This document shows positions 8,801 to 41,108 of a stretch of DNA of 41,108 bases, piece after piece. The position numbers and the translations under genes are program-made. Numbering within the stretch: position 1 is the stretch's first letter; the number at the start of each line of letters is the position of its first letter. The DNA is from a virus, in IMG/VR virus record IMGVR_UViG_3300025009_000216, positions 1 to 41,108 of that record, one strand, 5' to 3'. The notes beneath the pieces were generated by a model, which saw only the letters and a program-made list of their open reading frames with translations, did not search any database and was not told where the DNA came from.

Positions 8801-11800
8801 TTGTTTCAACACATTATTATTATTTTTAGAAACATATTGCCTATAAATATATTGAAGCATAATCCAATTAGAAATTAAATCATCTTTATCTAATCTAAGA
8901 TGACTATAAAATCTAGCACTAGGCGTATCTCCCCAAACAGTCATTATGCTTTTTAAATCGCCCTGAGGTACTAATGTATGAAGAGCAAGTTTAATATGAG
9001 CTTCATAAGGTTTAATAAGATGCGGATTTTTAATAGCCATTCTTGATCTTTCAAATCCTTTGCTTACTTTAGTGAGAGCCTTACCCATAGTAAGACTGAT
9101 CTCATCTGCTTGGCTATATTTAAAATATTCTAAGATACCATCTACATCTATAGCTTTTCTATAGGCATACTGACTGAACCCATCTGTTAAAGAGAATAAC
9201 ATCTTTGATGCATTAAGATGTTGAGTATACTGCAAGAGAGTTAACTGTTTAACTTTTTCATAATGAGCAGGATTAGTTAAGTTAATGTTCTCTATAGGAT
9301 GACGCTTTAAATACTGAGCCATAAAAGCCTCAATATTTTCATTTACATAATCTGTAAAGAACTTATTATAAAGCCCGTCTTCAAATTTTTCTTTACTAAG
9401 AAACTGATTTTTCCATTGTCTGTTATCACTTCCAATTTGTTTTAACTTTTCATATAGCTCAGTAGAAGCAGTCCTAACAAGATGTTCCCAGTCTGGGTCT
9501 ATTGCAACTCTTTTATCTATACCAGACTTACCTATAGCTTTATTTGTTTGGATTTGACCTAAATCATCTGCAAGTTTTTTTAATAAGTTTGCAAAGGCCC
9601 CGTTATTAGGAGCTATCAATTTATCAATACCTTCAGGTCCATCCTGTTTTAGGGCATACTTTTTGAGATGCTTTCTAATAATAAGTTGCTCATTAAGGCC
9701 TACAGTGTAAAAGCCATCCAACTCACGCAACATAGCTAAAGTATCTTTCTTTATAAAATGTTCAAAATAATTTATATCCTCATCAGATATTCCAACTCTT
9801 TTCATGCGATCCATAAGCTGCCCTATATCAAAGCCTTCACCATTATGAAAGACTAATTGTGTAAGTTTTTGGTCATTAGTTTTTAACATATCTATAAAGC
9901 TTTGTAGCATGGCTTGTTCATCAGTATACATACCTTTTTCACTAGCCTTAATATAATAGTCTAAGCGTTTCTCTACAGTGTCGAGTTCAGGTAAATCTTT
10001 ATACTTACTAGCTAAGAAACTTTCAGCAGGGATATCAAAAGTATCTGCTCTACTAAGTTTACGAATAAGAGACCCGGACTCTCCTCCGTAGACTTTCCAG
10101 CCTATCTGGTGTACAGAACCGATGTTAGCATTAAAGCCTGGAGTCTCTATATCACAAATGATATATTTAATATATGATCTTGGAAATTTCTTTTTTAAGA
10201 AAGCTCGTATAACAGCTTCTGTTATTTTAACATCAGCTTCAGCTTCATGAGCAGGAAGCTTTTCAACACCATAAAGTTCCATCATAGCTTTTTTAACTTT
10301 AGGGTCTTCTTGAAGCTTCTCTAATTTAAGAGAACGTTTTGCATCTGAATTTGCATAGTCTTCAATCTTTTGAATAAGCTCTTTAAATTTATAATCAAAG
10401 TTATTCAAAAAATTACGAGGAGATATCCCAGCAAGACCCTGGACTACATCTAAGAAGATGTTGTGGGTTAAGTCTCTAATATTGCTATTAGATAAATCAT
10501 TTAAAAAATGAGCATAGTTATCAAAGTGTGTAGACATATTGATAATTTCTCTAGCTATGTTTACAGCATCTGCCATATTTGCAGTTTGTCCTGTAGCTTT
10601 ATTAGTAACCGGTCCATTAAATGAATTAGCCATTGTATGAATATAGGCCCCAAGTCCTTCAGCATTGTTATTAATTGAAGCAACCAGTTCATTAACTTTT
10701 TCAATATTCATTAAAGACATGTTTGTATAGAGCTGAGATAATTTCAACTCATAGTAGATTGTTCTGGCTCCCAAAGATATCATACGATTTGTCATAGCTA
10801 CAGGATGATTATCTGCTAACATTTCTAATAATGTAGCAAAATCAGCAGGGTCTGTAGAACCTATGTTCATTATTGTAGGTGTTGCATCACTACTAATTGT
10901 GCTATGTTTAACAGGGGGCTTACCATATCCTTTAGGTAAAGGAGACTCTGTTTGTTTTAATACATCCTTAATTAACTCTATAAGTTTTTTATCAATTTTA
11001 GCTACATCACCCTTAGACAAAGAAGCTAAGATATCTCTTTGTAAACCTGGGATATCATCAGCACCACCCGTATATTTTTTTACAGTAGTTATAATATCCT
11101 GAATAAAAGCAGGTGTCTTATCAGTTAAGTGCTTAGCCATATCCACAACATAATCTTCTAATCTTTTAACTACTTGATGTTGGGCTGTTTTTATTTTATT
11201 ATAATAAATACGCTCACCACTAACAGGCGCATTGTTTTTTAACTTATCTGCAATACCTTGCACTATGCGTTGAAGATTTGTCCAAACCTCACTATACGCT
11301 TCCATATCTGTCGGGTTTACTGCGAGGAATGAATTAATAGCTTCTATAAGAACATGGTCATCTCCACCGACTATATCCTTAATCTGAGATATATATTGCT
11401 CTGGATCGTCCGTAAAAATTTCCACAATCTGTTTTTTAATATTATCAATATTATCTGGTTCAAGTATATCTATATTAGTCTTTCTAGCTTCTTTCTCAAA
11501 CTGACTATCTTGTATTTTCTGAATTAATGGATTTTGTGTCCTTTCTGCAAAGTTAAGTCTATCTGAATAGGACTTGTAAACCTTACCTAACACTTCATTA
11601 GGTTTAAGGGCATCTTTGATCTCATCAAATATTTGATTATAAGAGTCTGTTATTTCTCCAAGCTTTATAGCATACTCATCAAATTTAAATACAATATTAT
11701 TTAAATCAGTCCCTGCATCAACAGCATCTGAAATAGTATTTAGAGTACCTTGAATTGCTTCTTTAACAGCACCTTCAAAGGCATTAAGAACTTCAGTTAA

Positions 11801-29032: not shown

Positions 29033-30685
29033 TTAGAATTCATAATCAACTACGACTCTATCATTGTCCCGGTCTGGTTCGTCGAACAATGTTAGGACGC
29101 GATACTCCTCTTCGATATCTAGTTCTTCATAGGTCTCACTGATCTTCCTACCACCTGAGTACGCCCCATGTATCAGATTACGAGGATCAGCGGGAAGTTC
29201 CATTGTCATCCACTCCAGACAGTTGATGCAGTGGTTGTTCTTATCTACGGGCTTATCAGAGAACCCGTCATTAATATCTGATTGACTTGCAAATTTGTAA
29301 CTCTTTAGTTCCTTTACAAGAACCGGGCAGGTCTCCCCATATATCCGTATCTTGCCTGATTCAAGATAGGTATTGAGGCGGTATATCCTTGCATCTAGGT
29401 TGATATGCCCTGGTTTAAAGACCAACCCGTAGTCTATGAAGTGATCTGCCAGGGTTTTCTTGTCATAATCCCGCTTAGGTGCGGATTTTGGGTCTATTAA
29501 TGGCTGACATACCCAGTTACCCGGGGGGATATCCTTGGCTCCCTCGTGAAATAGCTTAGCTAGTTCTTCAACTGACTTGTTATTTGTAACGATTTCCTTA
29601 TATATAACAAGGAGGTTCTCTTTTTCGTCTATTGCCCCGAAGAGGAAGACCGAATTATCTGCAAGACCGTAGTCAAAGGCCACTATCCTACGCCATCTCT
29701 TCTCAGGCTCCTGGGCTTTTACCACATATTTCATAGCACTGGGGTAAATCAACCCCTCTGCGTATAGGAAGCTACCGTGTATGAACTTATTTATCCACCA
29801 TGCCGGCCTATTTTTCTTAAGAGAGTCTAGGAAGTTAGGTGGAAGGTACTGATTAGCGTCTGATGCTGTGATATGGCTTGAGATATCTTTATCTCGTTCT
29901 GTTTCTAAGATTGCGAACTTGTCTAAGACCTTACCATGTTTGTGTATTTCGTCGGAGTAGTCCAGTAAATCTGTTTTAATCCAACCCGGGTCCGGATTTG
30001 ACTCCGAAATTCCCTTACACCAGTCATGGTCTATGACCGGAACGAGCTCACCTTCTGTAGTCTTATGATAAACGATATCGCCATTTTCATCTAAGAGCGG
30101 TGTAGTAGCAGCTAAAGACCTGAGACGAGCTTTTAACTGGATGTAGGCTTCCGGTTTGATTTCAGAAGCCTCTACCGCAACCCACATGCTTAGCGTATAT
30201 GACCGGATTTTACCGGCATCATCAAACGGACGGTACATTACCCTATGCCCATTAACGAAATTCACATGTTGCTTTTGAGCTGACCAGTCGGCTATGAACT
30301 CTTCAGGTATGTCTGCCTCTATATCCCGTTTAATAGTAGCCTCATACTGTGACGCAACGTTCGCGCCTATTAGGGTATTACCCTTGGGCGTAAGGAAAAT
30401 GTGTTTGAAGACCTCTTCCCGGGATGTGTAGGTTTTGCCTGAGCCATAACCGCCAAAGTTACCTACTATGCGATGTGGGTCACGGTGAACGGCTGCCTGA
30501 TGAGCCTGAGGTACATAGGTATTGATGTAGGTATTACATCTTGTACACTCACGCCAAAACTCTGACGGTGCTCCTGAGTGAGACTTCGAGATTTCAGTTA
30601 CCGACCCGCAACGTGGGCAGTGGGTGAAATCACGACGTAGCTTTTTGGTTTCTAAGCTTGTCGGAGTTTCTCTTGATAATGGCAT
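29033..30685 (-). CDS. Terminase large subunit with N-terminal zinc ribbon
   Basis: 550 residues. The ATPase has a Walker A motif GGYGSGKT (K84) and a strand WVAVEASEI that fits the Walker B position. The C-terminal RNase H-like nuclease starts with VAFDYGLADNSVFLFG (first metal Asp), has an RDYDKKTLADHF block, and ends with a long acidic tail. Unusually, residues 23-50 form a CPRC...CTRC zinc ribbon before the ATPase. It packages DNA at the portal vertex. TTGGAGG precedes the ATG, which lies 56 bases inside the small upstream gene. Confidence 0.92.
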   Translation of the reverse strand: MPLSRETPTSLETKKLRRDFTHCPRCGSVTEISKSHSGAPSEFWRECTRCNTYINTYVPQAHQAAVHRDPHRIVGNFGGYGSGKTYTSREEVFKHIFLTPKGNTLIGANVASQYEATIKRDIEADIPEEFIADWSAQKQHVNFVNGHRVMYRPFDDAGKIRSYTLSMWVAVEASEIKPEAYIQLKARLRSLAATTPLLDENGDIVYHKTTEGELVPVIDHDWCKGISESNPDPGWIKTDLLDYSDEIHKHGKVLDKFAILETERDKDISSHITASDANQYLPPNFLDSLKKNRPAWWINKFIHGSFLYAEGLIYPSAMKYVVKAQEPEKRWRRIVAFDYGLADNSVFLFGAIDEKENLLVIYKEIVTNNKSVEELAKLFHEGAKDIPPGNWVCQPLIDPKSAPKRDYDKKTLADHFIDYGLVFKPGHINLDARIYRLNTYLESGKIRIYGETCPVLVKELKSYKFASQSDINDGFSDKPVDKNNHCINCLEWMTMELPADPRNLIHGAYSGGRKISETYEELDIEEEYRVLTLFDEPDRDNDRVVVDYEF

Positions 30686-36044: not shown

Positions 36045-36225
36045 AATAGCAGCACAACTTTTTATCTTTACAATGGCAATTTACTTTTACTTCCTAGCCT
36101 TTACATACAATAACTTCTGGTCCTGCATTGCTACGATATTTATAGCCTGTGCGTTAATGTGTTTTCTCGGGGTCACGTTAGAGTATCAACTAAATCATGA
36201 GGAGGAAGATGATGACAAAAGCTGA
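36031..36225 (+). CDS. Two-span membrane protein, unknown
   Basis: 64 residues from the ATG at 36031 after AAGGAG; a longer frame from 35860 has no binding site. Two membrane helices (AAQLFIFTMAIYFYFLAF and WSCIATIFIACALMCFLGV) lead to a very acidic tail (HEEEDDDKS). It overlaps both neighbouring genes by 14 bases. Confidence 0.65.
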   Translation: MKYVRIAAQLFIFTMAIYFYFLAFTYNNFWSCIATIFIACALMCFLGVTLEYQLNHEEEDDDKS

Positions 36226-36742
36226 TAATGCCTGGGTGATAGCTGATACACACTTCGGGCATAAGAACATTATAGATTATGCAGATCGTCCATTTAAAGA
36301 TGTACAAGAAATGAATGATGAAATGATCTACAGATGGAACAAAACTGTACTACCCGGTGACCAAATCTATATCCTAGGTGACTTTGCATTAACTGATAAA
36401 GCAACCTTAGAGAACATCTTAGGTGTATTGAACGGTCGTAAGTTCCTAATCGTGGGGAATCATGATAAAGGTATTCATCAAAAACTATGGTTTAGTATGG
36501 GAATAGAACTTATCAGTCCCTTTCCTATTATAATAGATCAGTTCTTTATTCTTTCTCATGAGCCTATGTATATTAACAATCATATGCCTTATGCTAATAT
36601 CTATGGCCATGTACACAGTGATGCAACTTATAAAGATGTAACCAAACAATCATTCTGTGCATGTGTCGAACGTATCAACTATACACCTATATGTTTGGGA
36701 GAAATTAAACGAAGAATGGAGAAAGCTGATGAAAGCAACTAA
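36212..36742 (+). CDS. Metallophosphoesterase (early region)
   Basis: 176 residues, starting at the second of two adjacent ATGs after AGGAGG. The metal ligands are complete: D12-x-H14 (ADTHFGHKNI), GDFALTD with D57, GNHDKG with N83-H84-D85, SHEP and GHVHSD. It is the compact form of the calcineurin-like phosphoesterases common in phages, which act on nucleotides or RNA ends. It is distinct in size and sequence from the one at 23.2 kb. Confidence 0.9.
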   Translation: MTKADNAWVIADTHFGHKNIIDYADRPFKDVQEMNDEMIYRWNKTVLPGDQIYILGDFALTDKATLENILGVLNGRKFLIVGNHDKGIHQKLWFSMGIELISPFPIIIDQFFILSHEPMYINNHMPYANIYGHVHSDATYKDVTKQSFCACVERINYTPICLGEIKRRMEKADESN

Positions 36743-36912: not shown

Positions 36913-37101
36913 ATGACATCATTTCATTTTACTATGGATTTACCAACCCCAACGATCCGAACATTTATGGACGATAATGGCAGAGTTTATCTAAACAAAG
37001 ATATCCGTCATGCTATGGACTTATTCCCAGGAGTTCAATTTGAAATACAGACCACACCAGATACAATTACTCTGAAGATAATCAAGCCAAAGGAGAAATA
37101 A
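36913..37101 (+). CDS. AbrB/SpoVT-like swapped-hairpin DNA-binding protein
   Basis: 62 residues. After a short leader comes RTFMDDNGRVYLNKDIRHAMDLFPGVQFEIQTTPDTITLKI, which follows the AbrB/MazE pattern: a basic-turn strand GRVYLNKDIRxAM, a G at the loop tip, and a closing IxLKxI strand. Such dimers bind AT-rich palindromes, which makes it a candidate for the TGYATA-NN-TATRCA sites here. AAAGGAAC precedes the ATG. Function as an antitoxin is less likely because no toxin is seen next to it. Confidence 0.6.
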   Translation: MTSFHFTMDLPTPTIRTFMDDNGRVYLNKDIRHAMDLFPGVQFEIQTTPDTITLKIIKPKEK

Positions 37102-38022: not shown

Positions 38023-38412
38023 ATGTCAAAAATCAAAACACTGGGAGACGCAATGGTTCTCACCAGCACAGTCAAGCTCGAGGACATCATGCAGCTTGCG
38101 AAGTACAATCCAAAAGCCTTGGTTATAGTGGAGCCTAAAACTGAGGACGAAATCTTCAGAATAACACCAAGCTTCAAACCATCCTTCGGAAAAGCCGGCG
38201 CAGCATTTAACACTGCAAACGCAGATGGTTTTGCTGAAATGACGATCCTACTTCCTGCAGGTTTATCCAACGAAGAGAAACTGACTTGGATCAAGGAATG
38301 CTATGGCGTAGGCTTACTCGAACTGAATAAGATCGAGACAACTATCGCAAGTGCAGTCGCCGAACTGAACGGTAAGTTCGACACCATGACCGAAAGCATC
38401 ACCATCGGCTAA
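38023..38412 (+). CDS. Unknown protein linked to the Ubl cluster
   Basis: 129 residues after AGAGGAGAG. It is alpha/beta: SKIKTLGDAMVLTSTVKLEDIMQLAKYNPKALVIVEP, EIFRITPSFK, then GKAGAAFNTANADGFAEMTILLPAGL and a helical end with KIETTIASAVAELNGKFD. The stretch around FNTANADGFAEMTILLP looks like a conserved core. It immediately precedes the ubiquitin-like gene and may be a partner or target of the modifier. I do not recognise a named family. Confidence 0.7.
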   Translation: MSKIKTLGDAMVLTSTVKLEDIMQLAKYNPKALVIVEPKTEDEIFRITPSFKPSFGKAGAAFNTANADGFAEMTILLPAGLSNEEKLTWIKECYGVGLLELNKIETTIASAVAELNGKFDTMTESITIG

Positions 38413-38431
38413 ATCCCATCAAAGCCCGGAC

Positions 38432-38477
38432 AAGGTTGCGAATCAATACAGGGCGTTGATAATACAATCGTAACCTT
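38432..38477 (+). terminator. Long interrupted hairpin before the Ubl gene
   Basis: AAGGTTGCGA (38432-38441) pairs with TCGTAACCTT (38468-38477), and ATCAA with TTGAT inside it, leaving a 9-base loop and a 7-base bulge. TTAACTTTT follows. It may partly terminate or protect the transcript, changing the ratio of the 129-residue protein to the ubiquitin-like protein. Confidence 0.5.
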
Positions 38478-38510
38478 TTAACTTTTCAACAAACCTGAGG
38501 AGGTTTACAC

Positions 38511-38738
38511 ATGATTTCAGTAACAGTTGGTAGTGGACTGAGCAGAAAAGCATATTCAGTTGATCCAGAAAGAACTCTCAAGTCAGTCCTTGATGAGCAT
38601 CAGATCAATTATTCAGTAGCACCGGTTCATCTTGACGGTTCGTCAGTTTCATCCGCAGAACTTAACAAAACATTCACGGAAATGGGAGTCGTAGATAGCT
38701 GCTACCTTATCGCTGTCGTAAAGAGCGACAACGCCTAA
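38511..38738 (+). CDS. Ubiquitin-like beta-grasp protein (ThiS/PRTRC-C-like size)
   Basis: 75 residues, GAGGAGG before the ATG. The order fits the beta-grasp fold: strand ISVTVGSG, strand RKAYSVDP, helix TLKSVLDEHQI, strand APVHLDGSSVS, short helix ELNKTFTEMG, strand CYLIAVVK. The 'VxLDG-x-x-V' and 'L-x-x-T-F-x-E-x-G' blocks are usual in bacterial ubiquitin/ThiS-like proteins. The C-terminus is KSDNA and lacks the Gly-Gly used for activation, which is notable. It lies two genes before a JAMM peptidase, the classic partner of such modifiers. Fold assigned from pattern only. Confidence 0.7.
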   Translation: MISVTVGSGLSRKAYSVDPERTLKSVLDEHQINYSVAPVHLDGSSVSSAELNKTFTEMGVVDSCYLIAVVKSDNA

Positions 38739-38747
38739 TCTCTCAAC

Positions 38748-38784
38748 AAGGGGCATCATACAGAGTATGGTGTCCTTTTTTTTT
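38748..38784 (+). terminator. Terminator after the ubiquitin-like gene
   Basis: AAGGGGCATCATA pairs with TATGGTGTCCTT (one bulge) around CAGAG and is followed by nine T. It would stop much of the transcription after the small modifier, so the modifier should be made in excess over the large protein and peptidase behind it. Confidence 0.85.
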
Positions 38785-38807
38785 AAACTTTAGAAAGGAG
38801 TAAAGTT

Positions 38808-40412
38808 ATGTTTGTAAATGGTTCATATACTTGCGAGGGTTATAGCCTAGACCCACGCTTAGAAAAACTCAAAAGAGATTTATCAGAATGGCTAGATGTA
38901 GGTACACAATCTTTTAAATATCGCAGCAGTACTAAAGAATCTAGCAGATGTGTCATAGACAATCCGGCACGAGTAATGATGAGCTTAATTAATTATTACA
39001 GAAACGACCTAGTTGGTGTAGATAACACAATAACTATCGAACATAATGTAGTAGAATACCCACCTAGTCACACAACTTACCAATATGATTGGCAAATAAA
39101 TCCACCTGTAGGCTTTACACCAAACAGACGTTCAAGCCCAACTAACAATGTTATTAAATTTGTACATGTCGCTAAATCATCAATTGGCATGTTTCAAAAA
39201 TTTGATGAATATTTTGCAGATGAAAAGCATATCTCAACCGGGCTACAAACCAGCTCTCAACATCGTATCCGTGTATATAAACCCCTGGCGTGGGGAAGTC
39301 ATGCCCTCCTTGTGGTGACTAACACCTATACCTGGGAGTTATACAGGCAAGTGGTTGCTCTTCTTCCTTTAATATTCCCTGACTTACTAGGAGATAAATT
39401 CGAAGAAGTCAAAGAAATATTTGAAGCTTATGGTGCATCTGACTTTGGTAAATGGATTGATGGTATCAATACATGGATTACTTCCAGAGACTTAGTATCC
39501 TATTATAAAAGAGCATTATTAATCAAATGCTTTCAAAGCACTCAGGAGCGTAGGATCAGAATATACACAGATAGTGAAGTTGCTGCTCAACGTAAAATAA
39601 GAGAATATGAAGACACACTCCGAGGACTTCAAAACAACTTACGAGACCTTCAATATACCCTTCTTGGCATCAGGGCTACTCCAGCACAAGACAACGAAGA
39701 AGTTGTAAATTACATCTTAAATCATAAACATATTACAGCTGCAGAGAAAATCGACTCAATAATTATACTAGATATTGAAACCCCTCTAGAATACTGGGAC
39801 GATGAACCTTTAAATATGTACTTTAAAAATCCACAATCAAGTTTAAACACAATACCCCAACTTGGTTGGATATTCAAAAAGATATTTAAAGAACGAGTGT
39901 TAAAAATACAAACTCATACCCGAGTTCATATCGATCTCTCTACCAATAAAATCAACGCAGAGTCTTGGTCACATGTTGAAACTTCCCAATTTGACTATAA
40001 TGCTATAATGCAACCACATTTAATGCGCTATAATTGCTGGGGAAATAACAGAATTAACATTGAAAGACTATTAACTTCAGGTGATTACATCGAAGCAATT
40101 GAACAAATTCTTGCAGCCTGTAAAAATTTAAATTTCGTAGACTCAACTGTTGTAAGTCATCTTATAAGCACAATAAACAACACATATCTTGTAAACCCAT
40201 TTGTCTTTGATCCGGCCTCAAAAGAATGGTACAATAAAGAACAACTTTATACACTATATAAACAAGAAAAAGAGGAGAAGAAAGCACATGAAGCCAATCA
40301 AGCTAACCCCGGAACTTCAAGCCCAACTAATGAAACAGTTCGAAGAGTTCCTGATAACGGAGAGAATGCAGTCGGACAAACTGAAGTTCGAAACGACCCT
40401 GACCTCTACTAA
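38808..40412 (+). CDS. Large protein with possible E2-like His...Cys motif
   Basis: 534 residues after AAAGGAG. The N-terminal ~220 residues are alpha/beta without known motifs. A coiled coil lies at about 255-285 (AAQRKIREYEDTLRGLQNNLRDLQ). The C-terminal domain (~310-460) contains VHIDLSTNKINAES, then QPHLMRYNCWGNN with H404 and C410, then INIERLLTSGDYIEAIEQILAAC. An H-P-like turn followed six residues later by Cys is reminiscent of E2 conjugating enzymes and their bacterial relatives. The last ~55 residues are disordered and overlap the next gene. The E2 idea depends mostly on context; a scaffold or a target adaptor are alternatives. Confidence 0.5.
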   Translation: MFVNGSYTCEGYSLDPRLEKLKRDLSEWLDVGTQSFKYRSSTKESSRCVIDNPARVMMSLINYYRNDLVGVDNTITIEHNVVEYPPSHTTYQYDWQINPPVGFTPNRRSSPTNNVIKFVHVAKSSIGMFQKFDEYFADEKHISTGLQTSSQHRIRVYKPLAWGSHALLVVTNTYTWELYRQVVALLPLIFPDLLGDKFEEVKEIFEAYGASDFGKWIDGINTWITSRDLVSYYKRALLIKCFQSTQERRIRIYTDSEVAAQRKIREYEDTLRGLQNNLRDLQYTLLGIRATPAQDNEEVVNYILNHKHITAAEKIDSIIILDIETPLEYWDDEPLNMYFKNPQSSLNTIPQLGWIFKKIFKERVLKIQTHTRVHIDLSTNKINAESWSHVETSQFDYNAIMQPHLMRYNCWGNNRINIERLLTSGDYIEAIEQILAACKNLNFVDSTVVSHLISTINNTYLVNPFVFDPASKEWYNKEQLYTLYKQEKEEKKAHEANQANPGTSSPTNETVRRVPDNGENAVGQTEVRNDPDLY

Positions 40413-41108
40413 AGACACACAAATCATACGACCACTAATTAAATTTACTGCTACAGCTTATCTGAAGATGACAAATCTGATGATGACCACAGCTACAGAA
40501 ATTGGTTGGCATGGTACAATCATCCGAGAGGATAGTGTCTACACCGTCACAGATATCTTCATGTATCCACAAATTGTTACAGCAGCAACCGTAGAAACTG
40601 ATGAGGCTGACTATGTAAAATGGTGTATGGAACTTCCTGATGATGTTATTAATTCTCTACGCTTTCACGGACATAGCCACGTTAATATGGCTGTAAATCC
40701 ATCCGGAATAGACAATACATTTTACGGTAAACTCTTACAACAAATCCCTGAGGATGATTTCTATATCTTTATGATTAGGAATAAATTAGGTTCTGTAAAC
40801 GTATGGTTATATGACCTAGCTACTAATTGTTTATATGACAGTGCAGATATTGATATTGAGGTTGAACTAGATGCCGAGACATCTTTAGCTGAATGGACCA
40901 GAGATCAAAAAACAGAGTTTATCACCTTACCTCCGGTAAAAACATTTGGAGCAACTCAACCAAACACCGGAACAACTACACTAACTGATCCTCCAAAGAT
41001 AAAAAGAACAGGAACAGAAACGGGAGAATACCGTTATAACAAAAAAACAAAAAGAGATGAATGGCATCCCTACACCACTAAAGAAATGCTCGACAAAGAA
41101 ATAGAGGC
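40288..41108 (+). CDS. JAB/JAMM-domain metallopeptidase (3' end outside window)
   Basis: At least 273 residues from an ATG ten bases after GAGGAG; the frame is still open at the window end. The N-terminus (MKPIKLTPELQAQLMKQFEEFL) is helical. The JAMM site is complete: catalytic E71 in TEIGWHG, H129-x-H131 in HGHSHVNM, S139 and D142 in NPSGID. The family cuts ubiquitin or ubiquitin-like proteins from precursors or conjugates. A Thr/Pro-rich C-terminal part follows (LTDPPKIKRTGTETGEYRYN). The start lies 125 bases inside the previous gene, in another frame. An E1/ThiF-like gene could lie just beyond the window. Confidence 0.88.
   Translation, partial: MKPIKLTPELQAQLMKQFEEFLITERMQSDKLKFETTLTSTKDTQIIRPLIKFTATAYLKMTNLMMTTATEIGWHGTIIREDSVYTVTDIFMYPQIVTAATVETDEADYVKWCMELPDDVINSLRFHGHSHVNMAVNPSGIDNTFYGKLLQQIPEDDFYIFMIRNKLGSVNVWLYDLATNCLYDSADIDIEVELDAETSLAEWTRDQKTEFITLPPVKTFGATQPNTGTTTLTDPPKIKRTGTETGEYRYNKKTKRDEWHPYTTKEMLDKEIE

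Follow-up and report, generated by a model that had tools for sequence, protein, structure and literature searches.

Retrons and ubiquitin-like (Ubl) conjugation are both known as bacterial anti-phage defences. The retrons closest to the locus described here are those of RT type II-A, or St85-like (with the RTs of Ec83, Ec78 and Ec86), with which it shares the reverse transcriptase (RT) family, an ncRNA 5′ of the RT gene, an a1/a2 inverted repeat with a G after a1, and msr hairpins. Unlike those retrons, whose accessory is a nucleosidase, a nuclease or a TIR protein, this locus has a putative five-protein Ubl pathway as its accessory, is carried by phages, and combines one RT with several ncRNAs whose msd are unrelated. 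The accessory genes resemble the plasmid PRTRC system (ParB-E-C-F-B-A-ThiF) in their order (small protein, Ubl, E2, JAB, E1) and in having a homologous E1, but the cassette is without ParB or F, is retron-linked, and is found on phages of Clostridia. It would also share the Ubl, E1, E2 and JAB chemistry of the anti-phage Bil/ISG15-like and type II CBASS systems, from which it differs in its separate short E1, in being phage-encoded and in the attached retron. Other phages (Staphylococcus jumbo phages, Klebsiella 4LV2017 and Pf phages) likewise encode retron-type RTs which, compared by RT sequence, are ∼23–31% identical to the cassette RT. In the openly accessible literature, with subscription papers and preprints mostly outside the scope, we found no work joining a retron with ThiF or Ubl conjugation. 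As far as we could find, a retron has not been tied to Ubl conjugation before, nor has any been described in which one RT is served by arrays of ncRNAs with differing msd; in this cassette both systems would stand on the side of the phage.

The window, meaning the whole stretch of DNA analysed, is a 41.1-kb IMG/VR virus record (41,108 nucleotides) that ends inside the cassette; its other genes encode a major head protein, tail fibres, a DNA polymerase and a RecE-like exonuclease. Four open reading frames on the + strand, all placed correctly in the initial annotation, make up the part of the cassette within the window: X (38023..38412), the first cassette gene, a 129-aa α/β protein with no function assigned; Ubl (38511..38738), a 75-aa β-grasp ubiquitin-like modifier ending in VVKSDNA; the E2-like gene (38808..40412), whose 534-aa product comprises an N-terminal region, a long helix and a C-terminal domain with H404-x5-C410; and the JAMM/JAB metallopeptidase (40288..41108), whose frame is still open at the window end. 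The same annotation had judged the cluster to be unclosed, and indeed the next gene is the E1. This was read from a second IMG/VR contig (L002), which shares 10,301 bp with the window (99.99% identity; L002 position = window position − 30807). The sole mismatch, window 40906 C versus L002 10099 T, gives a stop in the JAMM tail, past the catalytic core. Beyond the window end, L002 has the E1/ThiF gene, about 400 nt without an ORF, the RT, two small ORFs and an SNF2 helicase. The E1 lies directly after the peptidase (L002 10374-11039), the retron ncRNA, a structured RNA of ∼300 nt, occupies L002 11135-11421 (a1, 11135-11142; a2, 11414-11421), and the RT is 3′ of it (L002 11442-12593), giving the cassette order X - Ubl - E2-like - JAMM peptidase - E1 - ncRNA - RT. 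Pfam, NCBIfam, PHROG and PDB searches with single window proteins returned nothing useful, and only family alignments were informative.

A terminator-like inverted repeat followed by a T run (GGGGCATCATAC..GTATGGTGTCC TTTTTTTTT) lies between Ubl and the E2-like gene at window 38738-38800, and another repeat is found 3′ of X (window 38412-38500). The output of X and Ubl may be above that of the enzymes.

The proposal of the initial annotation, a phage-encoded ubiquitin-like modification cluster, depended on the fold of the 75-residue protein, with a fold other than β-grasp set beforehand as grounds for rejecting it. The AlphaFold model of a homologue (L010, 41% identical to the window Ubl and fused to X) has a pLDDT of 95.7, and its first 75 residues matched ubiquitin, SUMO and NEDD8 in Foldseek, confirming the β-grasp fold of the family; together with the neighbouring E1/ThiF gene, this supports the proposal. 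The family tail reads K-x-x-[N/G/S]-[A/G] plus 0–4 residues. The C-termini are mostly N-A, with G-G in a minority only (e.g., KADGGIH, KADGGVY and KGDGGVM), and a small-residue end thus stands in for Gly-Gly in most of these Ubl proteins. A single ORF encodes both Ubl and X in at least 13 loci, with Ubl first and the junction directly past the Ubl tail, reminiscent of the ubiquitin-ribosomal fusions, which require a protease.

The E2-reminiscent H404...C410 motif noted earlier in the 534-aa protein is borne out by conservation: C410 is invariant in 70 of 70 divergent homologues and is the sole such residue (context PxPH....C.G), and H404 is kept in at least 90% of them. The predicted order in the C-terminal domain (helix, four strands, Cys loop, helices) fits an E2. 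The E2 fold itself found no such backing, since Foldseek and profile searches of Pfam and the PDB gave no match, the model of the whole protein matched no PDB fold, and the one viral match to that model was an uncharacterised phage protein (A0A8S5PR93). From the conserved Cys and His and the compatible order of strands and helices, we infer that the protein acts as an E2.

The peptidase and the E1 are assigned on firmer sequence matches. JAMM residues E71, H129, H131, S139 and D142, all picked out in the initial annotation, are invariant across 46 aligned homologues, and the family profile matches Rpn11 in the PDB (E = 2.4e-5). The E1 is a short ThiF-type protein (ThiF match at 1.1e-21) whose nearest solved structure is UBA5, with GCG..GS, D48, D50, N56, K71, D109, R114 and C176 invariant in 43 sequences; an E1-like gene had been anticipated in the neighbouring sequence, and it is present directly after the JAMM gene in this phage and its relatives. 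A short E1 of this type, together with the weak ThiS and SAMP2 matches of the Ubl, would also suit a sulfur carrier (ThiF/ThiS or MoeB/MoaD-like) serving tRNA or nucleotide modification instead of protein tagging. We consider this improbable: the E2-like protein has an invariant Cys, the JAMM peptidase retains all its catalytic residues, and the Ubl tails are mostly N-A, whereas thiocarboxylate chemistry requires a G-G end. Protein conjugation by the Ubl pathway is quite probable.

The likeness to PRTRC that had been suggested extends to gene order, X-Ubl-E2-JAB-E1 mirroring E-C-F/B-A-ThiF on ten annotated plasmids, which is what would be expected if the cassette were a plasmid PRTRC system residing on a phage. 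By profile-profile comparison (hhalign), though, homology is confined to the E1, which matches PRTRC ThiF at 96% (1.4e-9), against 3% for the cassette JAB versus PRTRC A and <1% for each of E2-like, Ubl and X versus PRTRC B, C, E and F. No ParB lies beside the cassette, and no annotated RT adjoins the PRTRC clusters examined. As a matter of membership the idea is largely refuted and we give it very little weight; since only the E1 is homologous by profile, we regard the cassette as built on a PRTRC-like plan without belonging to that system. None of X, Ubl, E2-like or JAB matched any family among the PADLOC models, and the cassette E1 matches only the E1 part of the PADLOC E1-E2.

The RT is of retron type. 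It scores 205 bits (E = 1.1e-60) with NCBIfam retron_St85_RT, below the 235-bit cutoff of that model, and 2e-56 with PADLOC RT_II-A, and its family profile matches the solved retron RTs Ec83 (9e-42), Ec78 and Ec86 in the PDB. Signature motifs of retron RTs are NAxxH and VTG; the cassette RT appears to have DAxxxH and xLG at these places, and its LPQGTPxSP motif (LPQG..SP) presumably differs from that of RTs of diversity-generating retroelements (DGRs). A match to the group II RT model (9e-26) is the one sign that it could be a group II intron or DGR enzyme, a reading that we regard as hardly credible, given the far higher scores with retron models, the LPQG..SP in place of the DGR motif, and the retron ncRNA with a1/a2 and G described below; moreover, within 45.7 kb of its own phage no template/variable repeat pair, and no msd copy elsewhere beyond chance, was found. 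In several phages, genes for RNase HI lie immediately 5′ or 3′ of the RT, which fits a report that retron RT-DNA depends on RNase H1 (PMC8989520).

The RNA 5′ of the RT carries an a1/a2 repeat ∼290 nt apart. In 39 of 121 loci (∼6 expected), a1 and a2 were more complementary than in any of 20 shuffles, and among these 39 strong pairs, chosen by complementarity only, AG precedes a2 in 27 and a G directly follows a1 in 34, positional evidence for a branching G. In alignment A14 the G after a1 is invariant, its members having been selected for that G. Textbook retrons prime from a guanosine within msr (PMC8867640). The msr hairpin covaries in 53 aligned 5′ parts, with compensatory changes at 6 of 6 predicted pairs, and a covariance model built from these 5′ parts was used to anchor an a1/a2 swap test, covering 55 distinct a1 8-mers. 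In 83 of 109 cases (5.5 expected), the fit of a locus's own a1 to its own a2 region ranked in the top 5% of swaps, and 61 of these 83 have AG before a2. In the window phage the fold of the ncRNA is closed by an 8-bp a1/a2 stem (z −2.6); its score with the covariance model is modest (27 bits) because its lineage is divergent. Rfam gave no credible match. An R1 match at window 29582-29650 was rejected, being in a coding region and having no a1/a2 partner. In one RT subclade (L009, L014, L050 and L221), the RT directly follows the E1 and the locus has no recognisable ncRNA.

Many loci carry more than one ncRNA. The covariance model search found at least two in 50 of 74 loci and in 25 of 40 phage records, with a maximum of eight in one record. 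Of 136 matches, 61 lie between E1 and RT and 72 after the RT (often 3–60 nt beyond its stop); the other 3 are elsewhere, and no match falls inside the RT. Within one phage the mean identity among ncRNAs is 41–66% in msr and 23–37% in msd, the latter similar to the 27% found between unrelated msd copies from different phages; in more distant phage pairs the msd are unalignable and the ends conserved. Searches with one msd in the phage collection, and searches in 16 phage and host genomes, yielded no msd match beyond chance, and no msd target or trigger emerged from those sequence searches.

In one phage locus (L275 3559-7192, corresponding to G039 79558-83191), a single RT is followed by seven retron ncRNAs in clusters 300–420 nt apart, and this array contains an RNase HI gene. 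We had also considered recent hypervariation of msd in the phages L157 and L158, and rejected it as their ncRNAs are one base apart and the variable block is a different, dispersed repeat (L157 12590-12790 and its L158 counterpart), which occurs at several sites and differs between these otherwise ∼99% identical phages.

The same cassette order is seen again in phages of gut and rumen metagenomes as well as in Clostridia MAGs, with X as first gene of the conserved cassette; an independent, unannotated human gut phage record (MT835544.1) carries all six genes in this order by pairwise alignments. Scans were run from three sides: the E1 scan of viruses gave 51 loci, many on contigs of 100–150 kb, the RT scan 80 loci kept of 383 candidates, and the peptidase scan 80 loci, and a scan of GTDB genomes gave 39 loci, nearly all in Clostridia MAGs (e.g., Oscillospiraceae, Lachnospiraceae and Ruminococcus). 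Profile searches placed an RT downstream in 69 of 72 peptidase-found loci (the other 3 having none within 4.6 kb), in 46 of 46 viral loci found through E1 and in 25 of 26 GTDB contigs, and E1 plus JAMM upstream in 66 of 67 RT-found loci with room, these counts not being independent since contigs overlap among the scans. That parts, order, catalytic residues, RNA structure and linkage form one conserved unit is, we believe, as good as certain.

The Ubl operon and the retron might nevertheless be two independent phage modules, early genes that travel together with no functional coupling. In favour of this, the gap between E1 and RT can be as short as 4 nt or reach at least 2.3 kb, the RT is 6–7 kb away in two loci (L147 and L172), and some loci have no ncRNA near the RT. 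RT distances correlate with those of E1, JAB and E2-like (Mantel r 0.66–0.76, p = 0.001, 39 loci), a correlation that shared phage ancestry could produce too. Set against it are the near-complete co-occurrence, whether viewed from the peptidase, the E1 or the RT, the direct adjacency of E1 and RT in L009, L014 and L050, and the finding that no other neighbouring gene, effectors included, occurs in more than roughly one locus in three. We think it unlikely that the modules are independent, and functional coupling of retron and conjugation, for which linkage is the argument, is rather likely.

Since both the RT and the ncRNA behave as those of retrons in these comparisons, we class the cassette as a new retron type, and a phage-borne retron with a complete Ubl conjugation pathway as its accessory module is the explanation we favour, with reasonable confidence. 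We infer that the Ubl genes are the effector or accessory of the retron. In the mechanism we propose, each msd would be copied into msDNA by the RT. The Ubl C-terminus (N-A, G-A or G-G) would be adenylated by the E1, and Ubl would be handed from Cys176 of the E1 to the E2-like protein at Cys410 before attachment to a target; the JAMM peptidase would trim Ubl precursors, Ubl-X fusions included, and take Ubl off again. In known retrons, msDNA plays a sensor or adapter role for effectors, and by analogy the RT-msDNA complexes might, in such a role, turn conjugation on or direct it to a target, several msDNAs per RT perhaps allowing several triggers or targets. The cassette would presumably serve in conflict with host defences or rival phages, a use that we somewhat favour; a weapon, an anti-defence device or a virion modifier, as suggested in the initial annotation, would each be candidate roles. 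More tentatively, one RT with an interchangeable msr-msd array could produce a set of msDNAs that programs which protein is tagged, or when, which would be categorically new and is a possibility we consider less likely than not. The pairing suggests that phages control protein tagging through self-made DNA and makes msDNA control of a protein-modification pathway a testable question, and the numerous natural msd variants represent new RT-DNA scaffolds.

Some further observations concern variants and neighbours of the cassette. One locus (L119) keeps the RT, ncRNA, X and Ubl but lacks E1, JAMM and the greater part of the E2-like gene, owing either to a deletion in nature or to faulty assembly. 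A PRTRC-B-like protein is encoded beside a Rad52-like gene in an Oscillospiraceae genome (L256 4852-5532), away from the phage cassette. In the window, 5′ of the cassette, a 62-aa AbrB/MazE-like protein (36913-37101) lies beside a 79-aa protein of no assigned function, and a PdeM-like/phage phosphoesterase (PHROG 547) is encoded at 36197-36742.
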